DNA of 64,000 nucleotides from Bacillus tuaregi (GTDB lineage Bacteria; Bacillota; Bacilli; Bacillales; Cytobacillaceae): positions 3,211,102 through 3,275,101 of the forward strand of contig NZ_LT629731.1 of the NCBI RefSeq assembly GCF_900104575.1. Direction: 5' to 3'. Both the position numbers and the translations under genes were made by a program. The notes beneath the pieces were generated by a model, which saw only the letters and a program-made list of their open reading frames with translations, made no database searches and was not told the DNA's origin. Of this stretch, positions 462 through 10,703 are shown one piece after another (position 1 is the stretch's first letter; each line of letters opens with the position of its first letter).

Positions 462-941
462 TTATTTCTTTATATCTGCATCAGTAATCACTTCATAACC
501 TTTGTCTGCCACTACAGCTTGCAAAGCTTTTAGGGCAGCAGTACCTACTGCCGTATCCTGTTCCCCATTACCGCCGCTTATGCCGACTCCGCCAACAACT
601 TCTCCGTTTACTACGATCGGGAAACCGCCAACGAAAATAGCGAATTTTCCGTCAAGCATATGCTGAATACCAAATGCTTCATTACCAGGTAATGCCGGAC
701 CATTTGGCTCTTTATTAAATAAATGTGTGGAACGCTTGTGACCAGCGGCCGTAAAAGCTTTCGCAATCGCAATTTCTGGACCTGTGATACGAGCTCCATT
801 CATTCTTTCTAACGCAATCACATACCCGCCATCGTCAACAATAGCAATGGTTTCTAATACATTGATTTCTTCAGATTTCTGCTTTGCAGCTTCAATCATT
901 ACTTTTGCTTCTTCTAATTCTAACTTTAAAGATGTCTTCAT
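462..941 (-). CDS. GlcG/HbpS-family (PF03928-type) protein
   Basis: A 159-residue protein of the GlcG/HbpS/PduO-C-terminal fold. It has the family's N-terminal helix, an IAIVDDGG-type strand near residue 33, and a glycine-rich FVGGFPIVVNGEVVGGVGISGG segment near residues 102-123. Members bind heme or corrinoids or have no proven activity, and they commonly sit in catabolic operons (glycolate, propanediol). It starts 28 bases after the aldehyde dehydrogenase stop with its own AGGAGAT site, so the two are probably cotranscribed. Within this island it could handle heme or act as a small accessory subunit; that role is inference from context only. Confidence 0.8.
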   Translation of the reverse strand: MKTSLKLELEEAKVMIEAAKQKSEEINVLETIAIVDDGGYVIALERMNGARITGPEIAIAKAFTAAGHKRSTHLFNKEPNGPALPGNEAFGIQHMLDGKFAIFVGGFPIVVNGEVVGGVGISGGNGEQDTAVGTAALKALQAVVADKGYEVITDADIKK

Positions 942-969
942 GTGTGATCTCCTCTATCCCTTTTGTTAA

Positions 970-2433
970 TTAATAGCCAACATAGACTGTTTTTACTTGA
1001 CTGAAAAATTCTAAACCAACTCTGCCGGATTCACGGAAAGTTGAAGTACTTGATTTTTTAACTCCACCAAATGGTGCATTCATTAGGTTTCCGGTTGTCG
1101 TACGATTTACTTTAACGGTTCCAGCTTGAATATCCTTTGTAAACTGATGGGCAGTCTTTAAGTTATTAGTAATAATAGAAGCGGATAAGCCATACTCTAC
1201 ATCATTAGCAATCTCTATTGCTTCCTCATACGAATTCACTTCAATAATAGCTATAACAGGCCCAAAGATTTCTTCTTTTGCAATTCTCATGCTAGAGCGA
1301 ACATCTGTAAAAATAGCCGGCTGAACAAAATAGCCTTTTTCGTACTCCCCGCTTGTCAGCTGTTCACCGCCATATACAAGGGTTGCACCATCTTCTTTAC
1401 CGATTTCAATATAGTTCAGAACATTCTTCAGCTGCTTTTCATTTGCTAACGGACCAATCTTTACACCGTTTTCAAAGCCATTGCCTACTTTTAAGGCTTT
1501 TGTTTTTTCAATTAACTTCTCAACATATGCATCTTTTACTTCCTTCATGACAATAACACGACTCGTGCCAGTACAAGCCTGACCTGTTAAAGAAAATCCG
1601 CCATTTACAGTCAAAGTAGCTGCCTGATCGACATCTGCATCATCCATAACGATAATAGGGTTTTTACCACCTAATTCCATTTGTAATCTAGTTGTAAAAG
1701 ATGATTTATGATGAATATCTTCACCCGCTCCAGTTGATCCTGTAAACGTTACAGCTTTAATCGCTGGATCTGTTACTAACAAATCTCCTACATCAGAAGC
1801 TTTCCCTGTTACTAGATTGATAACGCCTTTTGGAATACCTGCATTATGTAATGCCTCAACAAGACGTACAGCTATTAGAGGGGTATCTGATGAAGGTTTA
1901 AACACAACAGTATTACCTGTAATTAATGCAGGAGCAATCTTACGAGAAGGAATCGAAATAGGAAAATTCCAAGGAGTAATGACACTTATAACTCCAAGTG
2001 GTTCACGCTCAGTTGAAACTTTCATATTTGGATCATCATTTGGAAAGGTTTCTCCAGTAAAGGTTTGCCCTTCAACTGCGTAAAACCGTAGTGTTTGGGC
2101 TGAGCGTATGACTTCATTCTTAGCATCTGAAACATGCTTTCCTTCTTCTCGAGTCAATTCTTCAGCAAGAGCCTCAGCATTTTCTTCAAGGATATCTGCA
2201 GCTTTATTTAAGATGGCTGCACGCTTAGAAGGAGCAGTAGCCGCCCAGCTCGGAAATGCTTCAACAGCTGCATCAATCGCTTGCTTTACATCTTCTTCAT
2301 TAGAGGCTTGAAAAATCCCAACAATCTCTTCCTTATTAGCCGGATTGATATTGGTAAATGTTTTTTGACTTACAGATTCTGTCCATTCACCATTAATATA
2401 GTTGCTGAATGTTTCTACTTTTGTTGTAAGCAC
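970..2433 (-). CDS. NAD(P)-dependent aldehyde dehydrogenase
   Basis: A full-length 487-residue aldehyde dehydrogenase. Visible catalytic features are the TPWNFP motif (Asn156), Lys179 of the cofactor pocket, the GSTGAG turn at 232-237, the general base Glu253 in ELGGKNP and the nucleophile Cys287 in GQACTGT. It oxidises an aldehyde to an acid; overall similarity suggests the semialdehyde group (for example 2-oxoglutarate semialdehyde dehydrogenases), but the substrate cannot be read from sequence. The start is GTG with an AGGTGAT site. It lies downstream of the diiron oxidase and upstream of GlcG, so it could remove an aldehyde released by that oxidase or by the creatininase-like enzyme (inference). 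A terminator-like hairpin at 2483-2528 separates it from the oxidase gene. Confidence 0.93.
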   Translation of the reverse strand: MLTTKVETFSNYINGEWTESVSQKTFTNINPANKEEIVGIFQASNEEDVKQAIDAAVEAFPSWAATAPSKRAAILNKAADILEENAEALAEELTREEGKHVSDAKNEVIRSAQTLRFYAVEGQTFTGETFPNDDPNMKVSTEREPLGVISVITPWNFPISIPSRKIAPALITGNTVVFKPSSDTPLIAVRLVEALHNAGIPKGVINLVTGKASDVGDLLVTDPAIKAVTFTGSTGAGEDIHHKSSFTTRLQMELGGKNPIIVMDDADVDQAATLTVNGGFSLTGQACTGTSRVIVMKEVKDAYVEKLIEKTKALKVGNGFENGVKIGPLANEKQLKNVLNYIEIGKEDGATLVYGGEQLTSGEYEKGYFVQPAIFTDVRSSMRIAKEEIFGPVIAIIEVNSYEEAIEIANDVEYGLSASIITNNLKTAHQFTKDIQAGTVKVNRTTTGNLMNAPFGGVKKSSTSTFRESGRVGLEFFSQVKTVYVGY

Positions 2434-2482
2434 TCTATCACCTATTCCTTATTTATTATCACATAGCTTTATTTATAAAAAT

Positions 2483-2528
2483 GGGCCGTCATGTAGAATC
2501 TCGGTTAGAAGATTATATTTGACGGCCC
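2483..2528 (-). terminator. Hairpin after the HDO gene
   Basis: Perfect 9-bp arms (GGGCCGTCA / TGACGGCCC) with a 28-base loop, followed on the minus strand by ATTTTTA. It probably gives partial termination between the oxidase and the aldehyde dehydrogenase. Confidence 0.6.
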
Positions 2529-2571
2529 AGAAGGGGAAGACGTTAATCCCCCTCTTTAGTCATTACTTTAA

Positions 2572-3303
2572 TTATTTATTTTCTACTAAATTACCAAGGT
2601 CTTGCTCTAAGTATTCTCTGTATAGACCATCCATGTACATTCTTCTCATGTTTGCACCTACACGTACAATTTCAATACAACGTTGTTGTAATTCTGGAGT
2701 ATTCGCATGATCAAGAACAATCTTATAACCGCGCTCACCATGAATTTCGTCTGATACGATGTGAAGGTCAAAGAATTCGATTTCTTCATCTGTAAATCCG
2801 TATTGCTCACGTAATGCCGGAGTTTGCTTACGGTAGATATCTGGTACTTGAGATTCTAATCCTACTACTAGTGCTGCAGTTGCTACAACAAAATGTTCAC
2901 GTGCTGCAACTGAGTAGCACCAGCTTTGAAGACCTAGTGTTGTAGCAGCCATGTTTTTAGGATCTTGAACTCGTTCACGAGTTGTGCCACATGCTTCAGC
3001 AAAACGGATTAATAAATCTGTATGACGGTCTGCAGCGATTTCTTCTTCATACATATTTTGTAGAGTGAAGTCTTTTGCTGACTCATACTCAGGGATGTCT
3101 GGAGTATTGTGATAGATATATGCTAAGTAGTTTGCGAAAGGTCCTACATAGTGATAGTGGTTTTCAGCCCATCTAGCAAAGTGCTTTCTTTCTAATTTCC
3201 CTTCAGCCCAAGCCACTGTGAATGGAGCCTTTTGGCTGTGATTTCCTTTAATCGCTTCCTCTAATTCTTTACGGAATTCGTCTTTAGATAATAATTTAGT
3301 CAT
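2572..3303 (-). CDS. Heme-oxygenase-like diiron oxidase (HDO; TenA/PqqC/CADD-like)
   Basis: A 243-residue all-helical protein of the TenA/PqqC superfamily. Six ligands have the same spacing as the diiron site of Chlamydia CADD: Glu87, His94 (E-x6-H), Glu150, then His181, Asp185 and His188 (H-x3-D-x2-H). Cofactor-free PqqC and thiaminase TenA lack this set, so I infer an O2-activating iron enzyme such as UndA, BesC or CADD rather than a thiaminase. These cleave C-C bonds, desaturate or N-oxygenate small substrates and need external electrons; a ferredoxin is encoded two genes upstream. The start is the ATG after GAGGAGG, not the TTG 27 bases further upstream. Two GTATAC operators lie in its 230-base upstream region, so it probably has its own promoter. 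Confidence 0.85.
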   Translation of the reverse strand: MTKLLSKDEFRKELEEAIKGNHSQKAPFTVAWAEGKLERKHFARWAENHYHYVGPFANYLAYIYHNTPDIPEYESAKDFTLQNMYEEEIAADRHTDLLIRFAEACGTTRERVQDPKNMAATTLGLQSWCYSVAAREHFVVATAALVVGLESQVPDIYRKQTPALREQYGFTDEEIEFFDLHIVSDEIHGERGYKIVLDHANTPELQQRCIEIVRVGANMRRMYMDGLYREYLEQDLGNLVENK

Positions 3304-3362
3304 TACTTTTTCCTCCTCAATATTTACCAAGAATGTTATCTAATAATCTGGTATTTGATATT

Positions 3363-3373
3363 TTGTATACCAA
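3363..3373. promoter_or_regulatory. Putative FCD-GntR operator 1 (upstream of HDO)
   Basis: TTGTATACCAA, an imperfect palindrome around GTATAC, 60 bases upstream of the HDO start codon. It belongs to the set of seven described in the findings. Confidence 0.6.
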
Positions 3374-3434
3374 CCACCTTAGAATAAAAGTCTGAATATT
3401 TTTTTGTTTCAGTTTATCTTTTATTTTTTGGTAT

Positions 3435-3445
3435 TTGGTATACCG
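3435..3445. promoter_or_regulatory. Putative FCD-GntR operator 2 (upstream of HDO)
   Basis: TTGGTATACCG, 72 bases upstream of operator 1 (centre to centre), preceded by an extra GGTATT half-site. Paired sites at this spacing could allow DNA looping. Confidence 0.6.
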
Positions 3446-3532
3446 TTAACTAGATATTAAACTATATTTTCTAGTTTGTAAATAGTGTTTTCTAAATTTT
3501 TTAAAAATTTTAATTATTATCGATTCATGCTT

Positions 3533-4303
3533 CTACTTCACTACTTCTGCTTCTATTTTCATCAAAGTAACAAGTTCTGATGATAAATTATCCAATGCTT
3601 CCTCAACGATCTGCTCACCTATTTCCAAGCTTCCCTTCGTGGCATCACCAATACATCCGTTTTCAGTCATTTCTTCATAGGTATAAAACCCTTGAATCGC
3701 CTTCCCAGGTCTAAGTTGCTTCCATCTACCAGTTTCCTGAATTGCACCCTTTACAAGCTTCTCCTTACGTACAAGCTCAGGCGCTAAGTATAAAGCCTCT
3801 GAAACTTCACGCTCACAGCTGTGACCGAAAAGCTTGGATTCAACTAAACGTCCGATTGCATTCTTGGCTGACGCCGTTGTTTTAGCATAATAGACTTCAA
3901 CATCTAATTCATTTGACAAAGTCAATGATGCTAGACTCAAGGTTGATTGATTACCACCGTGAGAATTTAACAATAAAAATTTTTCAACTCCATGGTGTTT
4001 TAATGAGGATATCATATCCTTCAGGATAGCCATTAGGGTTTCCGGTCGCAGTGATATGGTACCCGGAAAATTCAAATGGTGCTGTGATACTCCCATATTA
4101 ATAGTCGGAGTGACAAGGGCATAAGGGTACATTCTCTCCCCCAGTTTTTTAGCCATTCTTTCCGCCAGTACAGCATCACAGCTTTCAACCATATGTGGAC
4201 CATGCTGCTCGTGTGCTCCTATCGGAATAATAACAAACTTCACATTTTGTAATGATTCCTTCACTTCTTCCCATGTCATAGCTGTTAAATCATAACAAGC
4301 CAT
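3533..4303 (-). CDS. Creatininase-family metal-dependent amidohydrolase
   Basis: A 256-residue creatininase-family protein. Metal-ligand motifs are visible: GAHEQHG with Glu32 and His34, Asp43, NSHGGN with His115, and HSCEREVS at 161-168, which matches the family's HAGExETS. Known members open the creatinine ring, deformylate an Fe(II)-dependent riboflavin/F420 precursor (ArfB), hydrolyse an inosose (IolN) or trim the mycofactocin peptide (MftE). The common theme is hydrolysis of a cyclic amide, formamide or peptide bond. No motif decides which applies here. It lies between the ferredoxin and the diiron oxidase on the same strand and has an operator (4361-4371) just upstream. Calling it creatininase itself would overreach. 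Confidence 0.88.
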   Translation of the reverse strand: MACYDLTAMTWEEVKESLQNVKFVIIPIGAHEQHGPHMVESCDAVLAERMAKKLGERMYPYALVTPTINMGVSQHHLNFPGTISLRPETLMAILKDMISSLKHHGVEKFLLLNSHGGNQSTLSLASLTLSNELDVEVYYAKTTASAKNAIGRLVESKLFGHSCEREVSEALYLAPELVRKEKLVKGAIQETGRWKQLRPGKAIQGFYTYEEMTENGCIGDATKGSLEIGEQIVEEALDNLSSELVTLMKIEAEVVK

Positions 4304-4360
4304 CTAATCACCTGCTTTTCTTTATTCATTCAATTCCAATTTAAATACCGAATCGGCATT

Positions 4361-4371
4361 TTGTATACCTA
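4361..4371. promoter_or_regulatory. Putative FCD-GntR operator 3 (upstream of the creatininase-like gene)
   Basis: TTGTATACCTA in the 79-base gap between the ferredoxin stop and the creatininase-like start. Its presence suggests a separate or internal promoter for the hydrolase. Confidence 0.55.
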
Positions 4372-4382
4372 ACTACCATGAA

Positions 4383-4712
4383 TTAAATTGATGATGATAA
4401 TTTTTTCTTAGGGGGATCAATTTTAATATTTTCCTGTGATATTTCAATATCTTGCTGAACAGTCATTTGGCATGTTAAGCGGTAGCCTTCAGTTAATTTG
4501 TCGCCGAGCATTTTTTCTTCCTTCCAATTTGGTGGCGTAACCCCATCTGCTCCATTAATTACCTGGCATACACATTTTGTACATCTGCCCATTCCACAAC
4601 CATATTTTAATTGAGGAAACTGACGAGTTCCGGCTAAAACAACCAGGTTGGCATTATCCTTTACCTCTTGTTCAACAACTGTTCCATCTACATGGAGGAT
4701 TACCTTTGGCAT
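4383..4712 (-). CDS. Plant-type [2Fe-2S] ferredoxin
   Basis: A 109-residue ferredoxin with cluster ligands Cys39, Cys44, Cys47 (C-x4-C-x2-C) and Cys81, embedded in the beta-grasp pattern of plant/adrenodoxin-type ferredoxins. Cys49 is an extra, non-ligand cysteine. It carries single electrons; no dedicated reductase gene is nearby, so a general flavoprotein would have to reduce it. It is first in a minus-strand series leading to the creatininase-like protein and the diiron oxidase, and is the most likely electron donor to that oxidase (inference). It is divergent from the 111-residue protein and shares the operator at 4877-4887. Confidence 0.88.
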   Translation of the reverse strand: MPKVILHVDGTVVEQEVKDNANLVVLAGTRQFPQLKYGCGMGRCTKCVCQVINGADGVTPPNWKEEKMLGDKLTEGYRLTCQMTVQQDIEISQENIKIDPPKKKLSSSI

Positions 4713-4876
4713 ACAATCGCCCCTTTATCATATTTTCTAAGTTTTTTGAAAACTAAGTTTATTATACTAGAATCTTTATGGAAAAGCAAAAACAACATGC
4801 GTATAGTATTATTTAAAAATTTTGAAAATTATATTGAATATTTGATAAACATCCATTAAACTAGTAAACAAGTAGT

Positions 4877-4887
4877 TTGGTATACAA
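4877..4887. promoter_or_regulatory. Putative FCD-GntR operator 4 (divergent intergenic region)
   Basis: TTGGTATACAA between the divergent ferredoxin and 111-residue genes, 164 and 80 bases from their starts. One site could control both directions. A TTGTACG / CGTACAA inverted repeat (4922-4943) lies further down in the leader of the 111-residue gene. Confidence 0.6.
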
Positions 4888-4967
4888 TATTCCAAGCTTT
4901 AATACCTGTTAACATTTTAAATTGTACGCCTGCTTACGTACAAAATTTTATCTTAAGGAGTGGTACT

Positions 4968-5303
4968 ATGGAAAAATACGCTGTCCTTACGAATAAGGAT
5001 ACTTTCCAAACTGTATTGGAGAATGATGCACTTGAATTAGTTGAAACATATCAATTCTATTTTTTCGATAGTCTTAAGGCAACTTACACGATCGCGAAAA
5101 TCGTTGATGACCATGCTAAAATTACCTTATATGAAAAATATGATGGTAAAGATTATATTAACAAAATTCATGTTAAATTTTTTGAAACATTCCCAACCAT
5201 TGAAGAAGCACGTGAGGAATTAAATGAAATCGTTAAGGCATCTGGAAATAGCGAGGATTCTCAGCATTCTAAATTAGTCAAAATCGAAAATGCCAATGTA
5301 TGA
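4968..5303 (+). CDS. Unrecognised 111-residue protein of the HDO island
   Basis: An ORF with a good AAGGAGTGG ribosome binding site and a perfect terminator behind it, so it is very likely a real, separately transcribed gene. The protein is acidic and soluble: no signal peptide, no membrane segment, no cysteine. It has alternating strand-like stretches around residues 40-80 and a helical segment (EEAREELNEIVKAS) near residues 75-95, which suggests a small alpha/beta fold. I do not recognise the family. Its promoter region shares an operator with the ferredoxin gene, so it is probably expressed with the oxidase and could be a regulatory or effector subunit; that is speculation. Confidence 0.8.
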   Translation: MEKYAVLTNKDTFQTVLENDALELVETYQFYFFDSLKATYTIAKIVDDHAKITLYEKYDGKDYINKIHVKFFETFPTIEEAREELNEIVKASGNSEDSQHSKLVKIENANV

Positions 5304-5318
5304 TGACTATTTTATCGT

Positions 5319-5351
5319 AATCCCGGAGAGAATACATATCTCTCCGGGATT
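5319..5351 (+). terminator. Terminator of the 111-residue gene
   Basis: A perfect 13-bp stem (AATCCCGGAGAGA and complement) with a 7-base loop, starting 15 bases after the stop codon and followed by ATATTTGTT. Confidence 0.85.
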
Positions 5352-5394
5352 ATATTTGTTATAAAACAACTAAACCTGGTCGATGACAAAAATA

Positions 5395-5418
5395 AACCGT
5401 CATATAGTGATGACGGTT
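5395..5418 (-). terminator. Terminator facing the 28-residue ORF
   Basis: A perfect 9-bp stem (AACCGTCAT / ATGACGGTT) with a 6-base loop. The minus-strand 3' side reads TTATTTTTG, so it would end a minus-strand transcript coming from the small ORF at 5437-5523. Confidence 0.7.
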
Positions 5419-5436
5419 ATAATAGGATTATATGTT

Positions 5437-5523
5437 TTAAAATTTTAATAATTTTCTTAAAAGCACTAACTTTTTCTCAGACTTTTCAACAGCTTTATGA
5501 GAACCGAATAAAAAGTTAAACAT
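5437..5523 (-). CDS. Possible 28-residue basic peptide
   Basis: A short ORF with a strong CGGAGG site 8 bases before its ATG and a well-formed terminator 18 bases after its stop. It encodes MFNFLFGSHKAVEKSEKKLV and eight more residues: a hydrophobic start followed by a lysine-rich amphipathic stretch. It lies between the 111-residue gene and the first permease, with an operator 66 bases upstream of its start. It could be a small membrane-associated peptide, a peptide substrate, or chance. No radical-SAM gene is present that would make it an obvious PQQ- or mycofactocin-like precursor. Confidence 0.45.
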   Translation of the reverse strand: MFNFLFGSHKAVEKSEKKLVLLRKLLKF

Positions 5524-5588
5524 AGCTCATACCTCCGAATATTCAATTAATATTATTTACATCTTGATTATACAATGTTTTTAGCAAA

Positions 5589-5599
5589 TTGTATACCAA
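5589..5599. promoter_or_regulatory. Putative FCD-GntR operator 5
   Basis: TTGTATACCAA, identical to operator 1, between the 28-residue ORF (minus) and the first permease (plus). Its centre is about 61 bases from operator 6. Confidence 0.6.
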
Positions 5600-5650
5600 A
5601 TGCTAAAATTTATGGTAAATTTATTAATAATTAACGCAAATATATCTATA

Positions 5651-5660
5651 TGGTATACCA
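5651..5660. promoter_or_regulatory. Putative FCD-GntR operator 6 (upstream of permease 1)
   Basis: TGGTATACCA, a perfect 10-bp palindrome 40 bases upstream of the permease start codon. It is the most symmetrical site of the set. Confidence 0.65.
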
Positions 5661-5699
5661 TGCGGATGTTTTCCATATTATAAGGATTAGGGTGATGTC

Positions 5700-7082
5700 A
5701 TGTTACGATTTCTTTTCTTATCTGCCATAACGCTATACTTACTATCTACTTTGTTTCCGCTTCTTAGTATCGGACCGTCTATATCGATTCTATGTCTTGT
5801 AATCGTCTTATGTACAATCGGGATAGTAAAAAAATTTGTAAGGATTCTAGGTAGCATTTTCCTGTTACTAGGCTTATTGCTGCTTTGGACGAGCGGTGCA
5901 GCTTGGAATGAATACATCCTTTCCTTTGGTTCCATGCTTGATCTTCTTACCCTGTTTACATTAGTACCTATATTAGGGATACCGATAAAATTGGGAGAAT
6001 ATAGTGAAGGAATAAAAACACTTATTCACAAAAAGGTTAAAACCACTGGAAAGCTATATATGTTAACTTCAGGAATCTCTTACTTTTTCAGTATCTTTAT
6101 GAATCTCGCAACACTCCCAATGACCTACTTTTCCATTAGACCCGCTCTCGATAGCTTTCCAATCAAACAGGAAAATCGTTTTTTAAGCAGGGCCATTACA
6201 CGTGGATTTGCCATGCCGCTATTGTGGGCACCGGTAACTCCTATTGTTGGAATTGTTGTCGGAATGACAGGTGTCAGCTGGCTTTCCATCCTTCCCTATG
6301 TTTTGCCGTTAAGCATTTTTGGATTATTACTGGACTGGTTTCTTGGCAGACAAAAATCTTCAACGAAAATAGAAGACCAGGTTTCGGCTTCGGTCTCCGA
6401 ATTAGCGGCAACCAAAGAGGATAGCAAAAAGGATTCTCCCGTACGAGTCCTGCAAATTTTACTAGCCATTGTCGTTTTTATTTTGGTTATTTCAACATTA
6501 GAAACCTTATTAGATTTTTCCTTTATCATTCTCGTCTCTTTATTAGTGATTCCATTTTCATTTGTTTGGGGTTTATTATTAAGAAAGGGCAATGATTTCT
6601 TTATTCAGTTGATTGATCATTTTAAGACCTTTACTGTGGGTATGAAGGATCAGTTCTTTATTTTCCTTTCTGCAGGTTTTTTAATCTCAACGATACAAGT
6701 CTCTCATGCGAATGAATATATAAATGAACGGACCCTTGATTTTATTCATGTTACAGGAGCAGAAGTTTTCATCATATTACTTCCGCTCATCCCTTTAGGT
6801 CTTGCTTTTGTCGGGCTTCACCCTGCCGTAAGTCTTTCTTTAATAGCTGGAGCCCTAAATCCAAGCCTTCTTGGGATTTCACCGTTTGTCCTAACCGTAG
6901 CGATGTTAACCGGAGCCGTTGCCTCCTTCCTTGTCGGTCCATATAATGCAACAATTGGGCTCATGTCGAATATCATTAAAGAAAGTTCCTTTAAAGTATC
7001 CAATTGGAATCTTGCCTATACAGGCTTATACGTTGGTTTAGCAATGGTTTACTTAATAGTATTAGAAATGATTATGTCCTAA
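5700..7082 (+). CDS. Polytopic membrane permease 1 of the HDO island
   Basis: A 460-residue, very hydrophobic protein with roughly 11-12 predicted membrane segments and a charged cytoplasmic loop near residues 215-245 (KSSTKIEDQ and following). The halves look duplicated, each with a glycine/proline-rich re-entrant-like stretch (PLLWAPVTPIVG near 180, VGLHPAVSLSLIAGALNPSLLG near 380). This layout resembles the ion-transporter superfamily of carboxylate/anion carriers, but I cannot place the family. The GGTGAT site before the ATG and a GTATAC palindrome 40 bases upstream support a regulated gene. It probably imports the island's substrate or exports a product. A strong bidirectional terminator follows. 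Confidence 0.8.
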   Translation: MLRFLFLSAITLYLLSTLFPLLSIGPSISILCLVIVLCTIGIVKKFVRILGSIFLLLGLLLLWTSGAAWNEYILSFGSMLDLLTLFTLVPILGIPIKLGEYSEGIKTLIHKKVKTTGKLYMLTSGISYFFSIFMNLATLPMTYFSIRPALDSFPIKQENRFLSRAITRGFAMPLLWAPVTPIVGIVVGMTGVSWLSILPYVLPLSIFGLLLDWFLGRQKSSTKIEDQVSASVSELAATKEDSKKDSPVRVLQILLAIVVFILVISTLETLLDFSFIILVSLLVIPFSFVWGLLLRKGNDFFIQLIDHFKTFTVGMKDQFFIFLSAGFLISTIQVSHANEYINERTLDFIHVTGAEVFIILLPLIPLGLAFVGLHPAVSLSLIAGALNPSLLGISPFVLTVAMLTGAVASFLVGPYNATIGLMSNIIKESSFKVSNWNLAYTGLYVGLAMVYLIVLEMIMS

Positions 7083-7086
7083 ATGA

Positions 7087-7129
7087 AAAAGGAACCCCCG
7101 GAGAAAAATCTTTTCTAGGGGTTCCTTTT
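7087..7129. terminator. Bidirectional terminator between convergent genes
   Basis: AAAAGGAACCCC and its complement form a 12-bp stem between permease 1 and the convergent reductase-like gene, with A- and T-runs suiting both strands. Confidence 0.85.
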
Positions 7130-7142
7130 GTAGTCCTTGCCA

Positions 7143-7832
7143 TCATTTTGACTTGGACAGCTGTATTTCCTTCACTATTTCCTTTGCAAAATGCCCAAGA
7201 GACCCATTACTGTAAGAGCGAATAACCTCGGGTGCAATGGATGTTAAAGCTCTTTTAACATATTCTGCGGACAGACCTTTTTCTGCAAAAATAGCCTCAA
7301 TCTCAATAGCTGCTTTTGCTGCATAGAAGGTAGCTAATTTATTGACCTGAACCAATCGATCCTCTTCATCTATCATGATTTGACCAAGCTTCTGGAATAA
7401 TTCTTCAATCGGCCCAGGCAATGGTGTTTCACTGATAAACAAAGCCTCACCGTGCTCAAACAAATCTCTCGCATGTCCCATAAATTTCACTCCAAAAACC
7501 GTTAATTGTGGAAAAGCACTGATAATCTCCTTGGAATTTAATGCCGTTGCCATATTCACAAGCATAACCTTCGTTAAGTCAAGTCCTTCTGAACGTAAAT
7601 TTTCTAAAAAGGGAGAAATATCCTTACCCGATAGCGCTAATATAAGAATATTAATTTCCGCTAAATCCTTCTTTTCAAGAATATATCCATTTTGAAATTG
7701 ATTAATAAATGTTTCTGACTTTTCCTTCGTAGGATGGTACACACCAATGTCCAATTGCTGCTGGTCCCATTGTTTCATTAATGCCGATCCTAATCTACCT
7801 ATTCCTACTAAGCCTACTTTATAATTCTCCAT
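7143..7832 (-). CDS. NAD(P)-binding oxidoreductase, pyrroline-5-carboxylate-reductase-like
   Basis: A 229-residue protein beginning with a Rossmann strand and the GxGxxGxA-like turn GIGRLGSA at residues 10-17, followed by a second strand ending near HPTKEK. The C-terminal half is helical, as in the P5C reductase/6-phosphogluconate dehydrogenase fold, but it is shorter than a typical ProC (about 270) and I cannot see the ProC signature, so proline synthesis is unlikely. It has a GGAGG site. It follows permease 2 on the same strand, but an imperfect hairpin with a T-run (7897-7937) lies between, so it may be transcribed partly from its own promoter. It has no GTATAC operator. Confidence 0.7.
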   Translation of the reverse strand: MENYKVGLVGIGRLGSALMKQWDQQQLDIGVYHPTKEKSETFINQFQNGYILEKKDLAEINILILALSGKDISPFLENLRSEGLDLTKVMLVNMATALNSKEIISAFPQLTVFGVKFMGHARDLFEHGEALFISETPLPGPIEELFQKLGQIMIDEEDRLVQVNKLATFYAAKAAIEIEAIFAEKGLSAEYVKRALTSIAPEVIRSYSNGSLGHFAKEIVKEIQLSKSK

Positions 7833-7896
7833 TTCATTACCTCCAATTTGTTAATCGATTATTCAAAACGTCCATATCTGTATAGGCAAAAAAAAT

Positions 7897-7937
7897 GGCT
7901 CCACCTCAAAATAATGAATATATTTTGGGTTAGAACC
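7897..7937 (-). terminator. Terminator between permease 2 and the reductase-like gene
   Basis: An imperfect 17-bp stem (inner CAAAATA / TATTTTG, outer GGTTC / GAGCC pairs) followed on the minus strand by ATTTTTTTT. Confidence 0.75.
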
Positions 7938-8001
7938 TGCAATATTTATGGTGATAGGATTATATAATAAGATTATGGATATTATTTTATTCTATTAGGT
8001 A

Positions 8002-9453
8002 CTACCAGATAATAATTGCGGCTAATGTGGAAAGGAAAAGTCCAACTATAACTGGAATAAAATTTCTTCGAGCTAACTCCATTGGCTGTAATTTCAAGAA
8101 ACCAGCAACGGCAACAAGTGAAGACCATGCAACAAGTGTTCCACCTGCCCAAATTGCGCCCATTTGTCCAATTGCTGCTAAAGTCGATGCATCCATACCT
8201 GCAGTCGCTAATGCACCAGATAATGCACCTGTTAATGGTAAACCGGAGAACCCCGATCCATCAAGACCAGTTATTAAGCCGACAATCAATAATCCGAAGC
8301 CAGCAAGGAATTCATTTTGCGGAACATAGGTCTGGGCTGCTTCAATCACATCGAATAGAAAAGCGGGCTTTGCTGCATCTTCTCCTAATGAGAGAATAGA
8401 ACCAGTAAAATCTGAACTACCCATAAAGAAGAAACCGGCAATTGGAATAACTGGCGCCATGGCACGAAAAGCAAATACAAAGCCATCTGTAATATGGTCA
8501 CTGACTTTATCCAATGCATGCATCCGATTAAATGCAAGCGTTGCCAAAATTAATAGTATTACCGCTACACCACCGATAAAAGCGGCCCCATCTCCACCTT
8601 CTAACCCTGTTCCACCAGAAAACTTATTTTGGAACATGTAAATCATAACACCAAGTAGCGATAACGGAACAAGAACAGAAAAGATTTTACCATACTTTTG
8701 TTTTCTTTGAACCATTACTGGATCTTCTTCCACTGCAGCTGCCATTTCATTTGCAGCATCAAAAAATACAGCTTCTTCTTCGTTGCTTTTTTCTGTTTTT
8801 GCACCTGAACTGGAGTTTTTATGTATGGCCTTATAATGTGACACATACACAATCACCAGTGCACTTAAACCAGTAATTAAAGAAAGGACTAATGCTTTAT
8901 CTGTTACCAAAGAGGTTTCTATACCTGCTGCTGTAGCGCTCAGCATTGGGGCTACCTGCATGATATAGTCGGAGGACAATGCCATCCCTTGTCCAGCAAT
9001 ACAAACAATACTGGCTGCAGCCATGACTGGTAGTCCAGCCTTTACAGCTGCAGGCACTAATAAAGCACAGATTAGTGGAACCGCAGGGGTTGGCCAAAAG
9101 AATAGCGAAATCACATACGTTACAACCATTAGAATAAGGTATGAAACATGACCATTAAGCATAATCTTCTGAATGGGGGCAACCATTTTCTGATCTGCTC
9201 CTAGATCTTTTAAAGCATTCAGCATCGCAATCATTAGTGATATGATCAAGAATATATTGAATAATTCTTTAGCCGCCACTAAATTTGCGTTAAAAACGCC
9301 TTGAAATCCTGAAACAATACTTCCTTTATATAAAGCTGCTACCAAAAAAGTTCCAACAAGTACCGGTAACACTACACCTTTTCTAAAGAGCATTGTAATC
9401 ACTACTGTCAAAGTCACAAGTACATAGATCCAATGTGCTAATGTTAGTTCCAT
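8002..9453 (-). CDS. Polytopic membrane permease 2 of the HDO island
   Basis: A 483-residue membrane protein with about 12 hydrophobic segments, a long acidic cytoplasmic loop near residues 215-250 (SGAKTEKSNEEEAVF), and a small-residue-rich stretch near 395-430 (GLDGSGFSGLPLTGALSGALA). The arrangement resembles carboxylate carriers of the DcuC/GntP/ion-transporter type, but I cannot assign a family confidently. It is not obviously homologous to permease 1. Its ATG follows a TAGGTGGAGG site. An operator (9517-9527) lies 64 bases upstream, between a possible -35 TTACAA and an AT-rich -10 region, a position suited to repression. The GntR regulator is the next gene upstream. Confidence 0.8.
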   Translation of the reverse strand: MELTLAHWIYVLVTLTVVITMLFRKGVVLPVLVGTFLVAALYKGSIVSGFQGVFNANLVAAKELFNIFLIISLMIAMLNALKDLGADQKMVAPIQKIMLNGHVSYLILMVVTYVISLFFWPTPAVPLICALLVPAAVKAGLPVMAAASIVCIAGQGMALSSDYIMQVAPMLSATAAGIETSLVTDKALVLSLITGLSALVIVYVSHYKAIHKNSSSGAKTEKSNEEEAVFFDAANEMAAAVEEDPVMVQRKQKYGKIFSVLVPLSLLGVMIYMFQNKFSGGTGLEGGDGAAFIGGVAVILLILATLAFNRMHALDKVSDHITDGFVFAFRAMAPVIPIAGFFFMGSSDFTGSILSLGEDAAKPAFLFDVIEAAQTYVPQNEFLAGFGLLIVGLITGLDGSGFSGLPLTGALSGALATAGMDASTLAAIGQMGAIWAGGTLVAWSSLVAVAGFLKLQPMELARRNFIPVIVGLFLSTLAAIIIW

Positions 9454-9516
9454 ATATTCCCTCCACCTACTATATTTGCTATTGCGATAAAAGATCTTGA
9501 TTTTTGCATTTAGTAT

Positions 9517-9527
9517 TTGGTATACCT
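9517..9527. promoter_or_regulatory. Putative FCD-GntR operator 7 (upstream of permease 2)
   Basis: TTGGTATACCT. On the minus strand it falls in the 17-base spacer between TTACAA and AATACT, a plausible SigA core promoter. Confidence 0.6.
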
Positions 9528-9778
9528 AAAAAGCTTGTAATCTAGCAAAAAAAAATTAGTTAATACCCCCTAACCCGAAAATAATAATAGGTCTGCACTC
9601 TTAACAGGTCATGTTGCCATCCTCCTTTTTCACTATAGACGTATTGGAAATACTATATCATTTATTTGAAGTATTGTGCAACAATTTTGAAAATTTTATA
9701 AATTAGATATTTTAAAACTTTAAGTTTGTCATCATCAGATAAATTTGCTACTATTCAACATAAGCTTTTTCTTTTTAG

Positions 9779-9825
9779 GTATAAGAAGCACCTTCCCTCC
9801 CTCCGGGTGATTCTTATACTTTTTT
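9779..9825 (+). terminator. Orphan plus-strand terminator; possible small RNA end
   Basis: A 14-bp stem with one mismatch (GTATAAGAAgCACC / GGTGaTTCTTATAC), a 13-base loop and then TTTTTT. No plus-strand gene ends here. The 575-base region 9454-10028 otherwise holds operator 7, AT-rich DNA and the GntR terminator, and I see no convincing ORF in it. The hairpin may end a small RNA. Confidence 0.65.
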
Positions 9826-9991
9826 CATGTAATGTTTTATAACATTTATATGTTTTTTATATTATAAAATATTAAAAATTGTCTGTATGTCGAAATCCGT
9901 CATCAAAAACCGCATATTTTATGACATTTTTTTCACTTTTACGTAATATTTCCTTACATTCGTATGGATGATATGGCAAATTAACGTAAAC

Positions 9992-10023
9992 AAAAAAGAA
10001 GAGCCTCGCAGCTCTTCTTTTTT
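9992..10023 (-). terminator. Terminator of the GntR gene
   Basis: A 13-bp stem (AAAAAAGAAGAGC and complement) with a 6-base loop, 5 bases beyond the GntR stop codon; the T-run forms part of the stem. Confidence 0.8.
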
Positions 10024-10028
10024 GTTCT

Positions 10029-10703
10029 TTAATCATTTTTATCATGATTAACAGCATCAATATACGCTTTCTTAGAATTTTCAATGTGGATTTTCGTAAG
10101 ATATTCAGCCATTTCTGTTTCCTGATTTATTATTGCCTTCATGATCTCTACATGTTCTCTCATTGACTGCTCAGGTCGACCTTCATTACGGTAACCAGTC
10201 TTTGCAAATGCACGAATATAATCTGATAATCCACTTAGCATTTCAAAAAGCTTTGAGTTTTTAGCGGAACTGTATAATAATTCATTCAATTCATTATGTA
10301 AAGCAGCATAATCCTTACTATTATGATCATTTAAATAACCTTCAACCTTTTCTATGCTGGCTTGAAACTTCTGCTTTAGCTCTTCATCTAGCTTTTGGAC
10401 AGCTAATTTAGCAGCTAGAACTTCTAAAGCTGATAAAACAGTAAAAACCTCCAATATTTCTTTTTCCGTAATATCAGCAACGATTACACCTTTGCGAGGA
10501 ACCGTTTTTACAAATCCTAGTGATTCTAAACGAAACAATGCTTCACGAATAGGTGTCCGGCTTATATTTAACTTTTCTGCCAATTCTCTCTCAACTAACC
10601 GGTCTCCTGCTTTTAGCTCCCCTTCAAGAATCAGATCCTTAAGGTGCAAGTAAGCTCTTTCTCGTATCGAGATTAGATTTTCCTCGGACCAATTTTTTGC
10701 CAC
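10029..10703 (-). CDS. GntR-family transcriptional regulator, FCD (FadR-like) subfamily
   Basis: A 224-residue regulator. Residues 10-75 form a winged helix with the recognition motif ISRTPIREALFRLESLGFV, and residues 85-215 form an all-helical FCD ligand domain with spaced histidines (about His143, His185 and His207) of the kind that bind a metal and an organic acid. It starts at GTG with a GAGGGGAGA site. FCD regulators usually bind short GT/AC-flanked palindromes and are released by a pathway metabolite. The seven GGTATACC-like sites in the adjacent island fit such an operator, so I infer it represses the island. No such site is seen in its own promoter, arguing against simple autoregulation. 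Confidence 0.92.
   Translation of the reverse strand: MAKNWSEENLISIRERAYLHLKDLILEGELKAGDRLVERELAEKLNISRTPIREALFRLESLGFVKTVPRKGVIVADITEKEILEVFTVLSALEVLAAKLAVQKLDEELKQKFQASIEKVEGYLNDHNSKDYAALHNELNELLYSSAKNSKLFEMLSGLSDYIRAFAKTGYRNEGRPEQSMREHVEIMKAIINQETEMAEYLTKIHIENSKKAYIDAVNHDKND

Follow-up and report, generated by a model that had tools for sequence, protein, structure and literature searches.

A putative catabolic regulon around a ferredoxin-linked heme-oxygenase-like diiron oxidase in Bacillus tuaregi, with relatives in Burkholderiales

About a dozen heme-oxygenase-like diiron oxidases (HDOs) have a tested function, mostly in the biosynthesis of natural products and cofactors, according to the available text of a 2026 review (PMC13108848), in which catabolism is brought up for heme only, and which mentions no catabolic HDO, ferredoxin partner or degradation. 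By analogy, the nearest precedent for an HDO fed by a reductase is MboA from mangotoxin biosynthesis, which, in the accessible part of its description, needs a dedicated NAD(P)H, flavin and Fe2S2 reductase, MboB; the authors regard the two as perhaps the first characterised dedicated pair of an HDO and a redox partner (PMC13185094). Another HDO, CADD, uses Tyr27 as a sacrificial active-site tyrosine (PMC11965152, available portion). Here we analyse a stretch of 64,000 nucleotides from the 4.86 Mb genome of Bacillus tuaregi (contig NZ_LT629731.1, positions 3,211,102 to 3,275,101), referred to below as the window, in which an HDO gene lies in a conserved cluster. Judging from sequences and predicted models, we propose with moderate confidence that this cluster is a catabolic regulon, whose HDO works as a multicomponent, ferredoxin-driven oxygenase that makes an aldehyde. 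The genes of the cluster are as follows (window positions, unless a locus handle is given):

462..941, minus strand, HbpS/GlcG-like protein (PF03928, 122.6 bits), with EfgA and NahX among its relatives in the PDB by sequence
970..2433, minus strand, aldehyde dehydrogenase (ALDH; Pfam, 576.3 bits)
2572..3303, minus strand, HDO, with the start set at ATG
3533..4303, minus strand, creatininase-family hydrolase (PF02633, 214.9 bits)
4383..4712, minus strand, [2Fe-2S] ferredoxin 1 (Fer2, 40.6 bits)
4968..5303, plus strand, conserved small protein of ~110 aa, without Pfam or NCBIfam match above the cut-off
5700..7082, plus strand, membrane carrier 1, without Pfam match
7143..7832, minus strand, ProC-like NAD(P)-binding protein (F420_oxidored, 27.5 bits)
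8002..9453, minus strand, membrane carrier 2, without Pfam match
10029..10703, minus strand, FCD-family GntR regulator 1 (FCD, 73.7 bits)
L115:10204-12466, left of the window, continuing the cluster strand: two CHR-family genes for short transporters, a second FCD-GntR and a second [2Fe-2S] ferredoxin
L115:10623-11303, left of the window edge, the second FCD-GntR itself

The CHR family consists of chromate-transporter-like proteins. For the HDO the ATG was chosen as the start, the listed open reading frame (ORF) beginning upstream at a TTG (3330). All genes named in the original prediction, made from the letters of the window, lie where it placed them, and all except the two carriers match a Pfam family; the ORF of the small protein (4968-5303, plus strand), the four genes beyond the left edge and the operators described below had been overlooked.

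By its ligand set and predicted fold, the window HDO is a member of the known HDO superfamily. It scores 119.1 bits with PF14518 (cut-off 28.9) and possesses the 3 His/3 carboxylate dimetal ligand set of the superfamily: E87, H94, E150, H181, D185 and H188, the same six residues that had been put forward as a full diiron set, are unchanged in all 21 aligned relatives, the most distant of which has 34% identity. The predicted fold is alpha-helical and heme-oxygenase-like, with CADD, PqqC and UndA as the nearest structures. It is very improbable, in our opinion, that this protein is a CADD-type p-aminobenzoate synthase, a PqqC or a thiaminase that happens to stand among unrelated genes. Although CADD is nearest by both fold and sequence, and PqqC comes next by fold, the scores stay below the respective cut-offs (96.4 bits versus 200 for the CADD subfamily TIGR04305, and 51.7 versus 240 for the PqqC model), the position of the CADD Tyr27 is taken by Thr (phmmer alignment, counted by hand), and the HDO is tied to the same genes across two phyla. 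The residue aligned with the amine-donor Lys152 of CADD is Gln, and the neighbouring Lys159 is nearly invariant. As to the thiaminases, the HDO scores 45.7 bits with the family model PF03070 (TenA; cut-off 22), and no TenA model appears among its NCBIfam matches.

The neighbourhood of the HDO was compared in 71 Bacillota loci, which with nine Proteobacterial loci make up the best 80 of 507 confirmed relatives, a set biased to high similarity; phylum was assigned via titles and gene order, and some of the 71 loci come from the 193 family genomes searched. HDO, ALDH, HbpS-like and hydrolase genes are present in all 71 loci, carrier 2, ferredoxin 1 and GntR in 70 each, the small protein in 69, carrier 1 and ferredoxin 2 in 68 each, and the CHR genes in 65, while AspDH-like (53), ProC-like (33) and RidA-like (32) genes complete the list. 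The order HDO-ALDH-HbpS is found in 71 of 71 loci, always with ALDH directly after HDO, and the CHR pair stands directly next in 56. The HDO occurs in 50 of the 193 family genomes, and separate searches with the HDO, the small protein and the hydrolase returned an identical set of 50 (lists compared by eye). Together with the gene counts, this bears out the linked unit that the original prediction had seen in a single genome.

A related cluster, with an HDO about 67-73% identical, is present in 58 Proteobacterial loci, nearly all from Burkholderiales; the hosts include Cupriavidus, with the laboratory strain Cupriavidus metallidurans CH34 (L033), Caballeronia, Paraburkholderia, other Burkholderiales and Crenalkalicoccus roseus (L114). 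These loci comprise three of six plasmid matches, nine of the best-80 set, six of seven Burkholderiales positives and 40 of 70 further positives; the seventh Burkholderiales positive (identical with the L106 genome) was left out, as were four of the 70 that had already been counted. Their layouts were derived with an ORF script that undercounts short and overlapped genes: it calls the HDO in 55 and the small protein in 31 of the 58 loci, versus 58 and 54 found by tblastn. By the script, ALDH is present in 52 loci, ferredoxin 1, carrier 2 and a flavin/2Fe-2S reductase in 50 each, ferredoxin 2 in 49, the HbpS-like protein and GntR in 48 each, and a TauE/SafE gene in 39, followed by ornithine-cyclodeaminase-like (27), GGT-like (12), amidase (8), SorA (7) and alpha/beta hydrolase (2) genes. 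Thus, what is kept between the phyla is the HDO, the ferredoxins, the small protein, ALDH, the HbpS-like protein, a carrier (carrier 2, 52% identical to its homologue in L033 and 51% to that in L141) and the operator core. Creatininase and CHR genes were called in none of the 58 loci and carrier 1 in none of the 11 loci counted for it; distant creatininase-family members (28-45% identity) lie elsewhere in three of four Proteobacterial genomes searched. The proposed neighbourhood of HDO, creatininase and ferredoxin holds in Bacillota (71, 71 and 70 of 71), but no close creatininase accompanies the HDO in the 58 Proteobacterial stretches: of the original interpretation, the linkage, the ligand set and the breakdown setting find support, and the Proteobacterial loci speak against a fixed pairing of HDO with creatininase.

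The arrangement of redox genes is what makes the HDO look like a multi-turnover oxygenase, because a diiron oxidase adjoins two ferredoxins and is accompanied by a reductase in the other phylum, and 11 of the 71 Bacillota stretches include a pyridine-nucleotide FAD reductase. The reductase of the Proteobacterial loci (50 of 58) combines Fer2, FAD and NAD domains, checked on one of them. The ferredoxin cysteines are conserved in two sets of relatives (79 of 79 and 76 of 76), and ferredoxin 1 retains the CX4CX2C...C pattern in all 79 relatives of 86-199 aa. The small protein follows the HDO almost strictly: both occur in the same six of 72,556 plasmid records, and all five Burkholderiales genomes (of 220) that have the small protein are among the seven HDO-positive ones, the HDO sample being 300 genomes. 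In one Burkholderiales family the HDO is present in 62 of 250 genomes. The ~110-aa protein is probably a dedicated part of the HDO system, and since its co-occurrence with the HDO is near-strict, it is likely to be a subunit or effector; its model (pLDDT 86.0) is mostly beta with one long helix, and comparison of this model with solved folds gave no clear match.

In the creatininase-family hydrolase, E32, H34, D43 and H115 are the same in all 72 aligned sequences, with Gly at H115+2; the protein exceeds the cut-off of the wide family PF02633 (31.3) and falls below those of creatininase TIGR04448 (106.8 bits versus 235) and mycofactocin MftE (105.2 versus 172). The nearest NCBIfam models of the ALDH are alpha-ketoglutaric semialdehyde dehydrogenase (604.3 bits, cut-off 770) and 2,5-dioxovalerate dehydrogenase, both below cut-off, and the ProC-like protein reaches 26.9 bits with pyrroline-5-carboxylate reductase ProC (cut-off 196.75). 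Neither carrier has a Pfam match at E up to 10, in a scan whose filters drop many weak matches.

A further line of evidence is a palindrome, T[TG]GTATAC[AC]A, that precedes most transcription units of the cluster. In the window, its core occurs at the following places:

3365..3370, operator core GTATAC (TTTTGTATACCAAC), upstream of HDO
3438..3443, operator core GTATAC (TTTGGTATACCGTT), upstream of HDO
4363..4368, operator core GTATAC (TTTTGTATACCTAA), upstream of the hydrolase
4880..4885, operator core GTATAC (TTTGGTATACAATA), between ferredoxin 1 and the small protein
5591..5596, operator core GTATAC (AATTGTATACCAAA), upstream of carrier 1
5653..5658, operator core GTATAC (TGGTATACCA), upstream of carrier 1
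9520..9525, operator core GTATAC (TTTGGTATACCTAA), upstream of carrier 2

All seven lie upstream of cluster genes and within the first 13 kb, versus four cores in the remaining 51 kb. The exact palindrome occurs four times in the window, where 0.21 are expected and no shuffle gave more than 2; when a looser 14-base form is allowed up to two mismatches, its 12 matches are not significantly above the 7.89 expected over the window. In the 71 Bacillota loci the palindrome was counted 459 times, versus 3-7 in five Markov shuffles; 404 of the 459 lie outside known genes, and 48 have no known gene start in reach. The nearest gene is most often carrier 1 (103), followed by HDO (80), the small protein (66), ferredoxin 2 (54), the hydrolase (37), carrier 2 (29) and AspDH (20). 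In the Proteobacterial loci a GTATAC no more than 220 bases away precedes HDO in 53 of 55 cases, carrier 2 in 43 of 50, TauE in 34 of 39, ferredoxin 1 in 26 of 50 and GntR in 22 of 48, but none of the seven SorA and none of the 50 reductase genes. Such a shared operator fits an FCD-GntR regulator, and as the operator is common to the cluster genes, we infer that the GntR binds the palindrome.

The breakdown setting, already suggested in the original prediction, follows from the carriers and the ALDH standing beside a GntR. In the pathway we envisage, one or both FCD-GntR regulators would act at the T[TG]GTATAC[AC]A operators in response to the substrate or an intermediate, and carrier 2 would import a compound that is small and probably anionic. 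Electrons would reach the HDO by way of the two small [2Fe-2S] ferredoxins, together with the flavin/2Fe-2S reductase of most Proteobacterial clusters or the pyridine-nucleotide FAD reductase near some Bacillota clusters. The HDO, presumably aided by the ~110-aa protein, would activate O2 and cleave the substrate oxidatively or hydroxylate it, yielding an aldehyde; the product is taken as an aldehyde because an ALDH gene is present in 71 of 71 Bacillota and 52 of 58 Proteobacterial loci, and the ALDH would convert it to an acid. A possible task of the HbpS-like protein is to bind or sense this reactive product, by likeness to EfgA, one of its solved relatives in the sequence comparison; EfgA senses formaldehyde. 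Finally, the nitrogen part may be handled by an amide hydrolase (of the creatininase family here) and, in relatives, by an AspDH-like or ornithine-cyclodeaminase-like enzyme.

Several observations weigh against this scheme. The ALDH was not called in six of 58 Proteobacterial loci (L114, L144, L146, L201, L218, L221) and directly follows the HDO in only 28 of the 55 with a called HDO, which means that some clusters may do without the aldehyde step. Also the small protein is without a tblastn match in two of the 71 Bacillota stretches (L103, L105) and four of the 58 Proteobacterial ones (L146, L191, L195, L218). Over the whole genome of the host the palindrome shows no overall excess; eight places elsewhere that were inspected are all inside ORFs, and for both reasons the regulon may extend no further than the cluster. 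Neither carrier resembles a characterised family, hence uptake, as opposed to export, is an assumption; the binding of the palindrome by GntR is deduced, and the role of the HbpS-like protein is a guess. In addition, artificial mediators can support other HDOs, as stated in the accessible part of the MboA report (PMC13185094).

The substrate of the proposed ferredoxin-driven oxygenase is possibly a small, sulfur-containing acid. TauD and SsuD, with other cofactors, hydroxylate the sulfonate-bearing carbon, giving an aldehyde and sulfite. The HDO might do the same, with the ALDH oxidising the aldehyde and TauE/SafE (Proteobacteria) or CHR proteins (Bacillota) exporting the sulfite; we regard this more specific version of our proposal as tentative. 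Sulfite release is suggested by the TauE/SafE and CHR exporters in the cluster and by a SorA sulfite dehydrogenase gene 0.6-1.3 kb from the HDO in seven of 58 loci (one of the seven was tested: L141:6959-8191, 697.3 bits, above the cut-off of 600). The TauE/SafE-like genes (39 of 58 loci by BLAST to one of them, 45-87% identity; two checked as PF01925) adjoin the carrier or GntR in 38 of 39 cases and have the operator core upstream in 34; however, TauE often lies in a divergent region common with the carrier, and therefore its operator count is not independent. The CHR genes (65 of 71 loci, two model-checked; the pair directly after HDO-ALDH-HbpS in 56) are not present in six Bacillota stretches, of which two have a TerC-family gene after ferredoxin 2 (L088:13978-14745, by Pfam; L089:14148-14912, by eye), and both exporter families carry other anions too. 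SorA is never preceded by the operator core (0 of 7), and its seven loci resemble one clade. An SsuA-like binding protein is encoded near three loci, one scoring 75.2 bits versus a cut-off of 163.5. An amino-acid sulfonate would explain the AspDH-like gene of 53 Bacillota loci (for instance homocysteate to aspartate semialdehyde, aspartate and oxaloacetate); the one gene tested of the 53, L041:2209-3015, scores 237.4 bits with the PRK13303 subfamily model (cut-off 177) and, just under the cut-off of 206.55, 204 bits with NadX. On the other side, the amide hydrolases are left unexplained, and no known desulfonation gene was noticed, no model search having been aimed at such genes. The full joint claim, that the HDO, two ferredoxins and a dedicated ~110-aa subunit form a desulfonating oxygenase that turns a small carboxylated, perhaps amino-acid, sulfonate into a semialdehyde and sulfite, in a pathway common to soil Bacillaceae and Burkholderiales, is doubtful.

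In a second reading, close to that of the original prediction, the HDO would hydroxylate a cyclic or linear amide acid next to the nitrogen, and the product would yield an aldehyde and an amide, to be split by the creatininase-family, GGT-like or amidase enzyme. In its favour are the creatininase family, which none of the 71 Bacillota loci lacks and which has GTATACAA upstream in 66 of them, complemented by a GGT-like Ntn hydrolase gene beside the HDO in 12 of the 58 Proteobacterial loci (one Pfam-checked), an amidase in eight and an alpha/beta hydrolase in two, by OCD-like, ProC-like and RidA-like genes, and by the hydantoin-related ORFs near distant HDOs described below. Nonetheless, 36 of the 58 Proteobacterial loci show none of these last three hydrolases within the stretch read, and the use of four unrelated hydrolase families suggests that the hydrolase is an optional side step; we consider this reading unlikely. 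The exporters and the nitrogen genes thus pull the substrate hints apart, and an amino-acid sulfonate that joins both is our construction.

More distant HDOs are found in other surroundings. One of 44% identity (L123:1504-3322) has an HbpS-like frame and a GntR-like ORF after it, with a Rieske-type ORF alongside (by eye), suggesting an HDO/HbpS pairing that predates the window-type cluster. In L124, L125 and L139, HDOs of 34-39% identity, which may mark additional catabolic clusters of this kind, adjoin ORFs that by eye are hydantoinase-like, hydantoin-racemase-like and of the NMT1-type binding-protein class. Near the cluster in eight Bacillota loci a NIF3/DUF34-like gene is paired with a gene for a ~375-aa membrane protein without NCBIfam match (L035:16807-18975), and a pair resembling it by eye is present in six Proteobacterial loci (e.g. 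L217:2168-4383). Hydroxypyruvate-isomerase-like and tartronate-semialdehyde-reductase-like genes (by eye) lie near RidA in L041, L046, L050, L053, L055 and L059; no glyoxylate carboligase was noticed in L041. The record of L043, titled Chryseobacterium sp. ISL-80, holds the Bacillota cluster, and its title is probably wrong. The other flank of the window cluster has a short ORF and then ispG, named by eye.

In term searches of the open-access literature we found no description of the cluster, of a comparable pathway or of a desulfonating HDO, in line with the original prediction, which knew of no described pathway with such a set of genes. If our proposal is true, the range of the superfamily would widen to a catabolic member that has ferredoxins, an accessory protein and a regulator to itself and that offers a system in which to study electron delivery to HDOs, and the breakdown route would span the 50 family genomes and the 62 genomes of the Burkholderiales family mentioned above. 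The operator and the strict co-occurrence make the proposal directly testable.

Bacterial multicomponent monooxygenases consist of a diiron oxygenase with a ferritin-like fold, a 2Fe-2S carrier, a reductase and a small accessory protein. The HDO system of the two phyla shares these types of parts, but its oxygenase has the predicted heme-oxygenase-like fold, and its accessory protein lacks a clear match among solved folds. Sulfonate catabolism with TauE/SafE and SorAB is likewise a known system, which the Proteobacterial clusters resemble in the exporter family and, in seven loci, in the sulfite dehydrogenase gene near the HDO; the oxygenase, however, would be an HDO, a use for which the open-access literature gave no example. 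Within the superfamily, the p-aminobenzoate synthases CADD and NePabS are the closest solved relatives of the window HDO by sequence (best E 2.4e-22) and by fold, from which it departs in the replacement of the sacrificial Tyr by Thr and in its score under the CADD subfamily cut-off. The Proteobacterial clusters encode a Fer2-FAD-NAD reductase beside an HDO, as in MboA/MboB, whereas the cluster of the window has no gene for such a reductase; MboA/MboB is biosynthetic, and its description, as far as available, mentions neither small ferredoxins nor a small protein (PMC13185094). For the superfamily with UndA, BesC, CADD, SznF, HrmI, PolF, AetD, FlcD and MboA, the available text of the review deals with biosynthesis and names no catabolic HDO and so agrees with the original prediction on this point (PMC13108848). 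Unlike them, the window HDO is set among carriers, an ALDH, a GntR and two ferredoxins, and what is new is this presumed catabolic setting, with ferredoxins to feed the enzyme and a small protein and an operator of its own, the enzyme superfamily itself being known.

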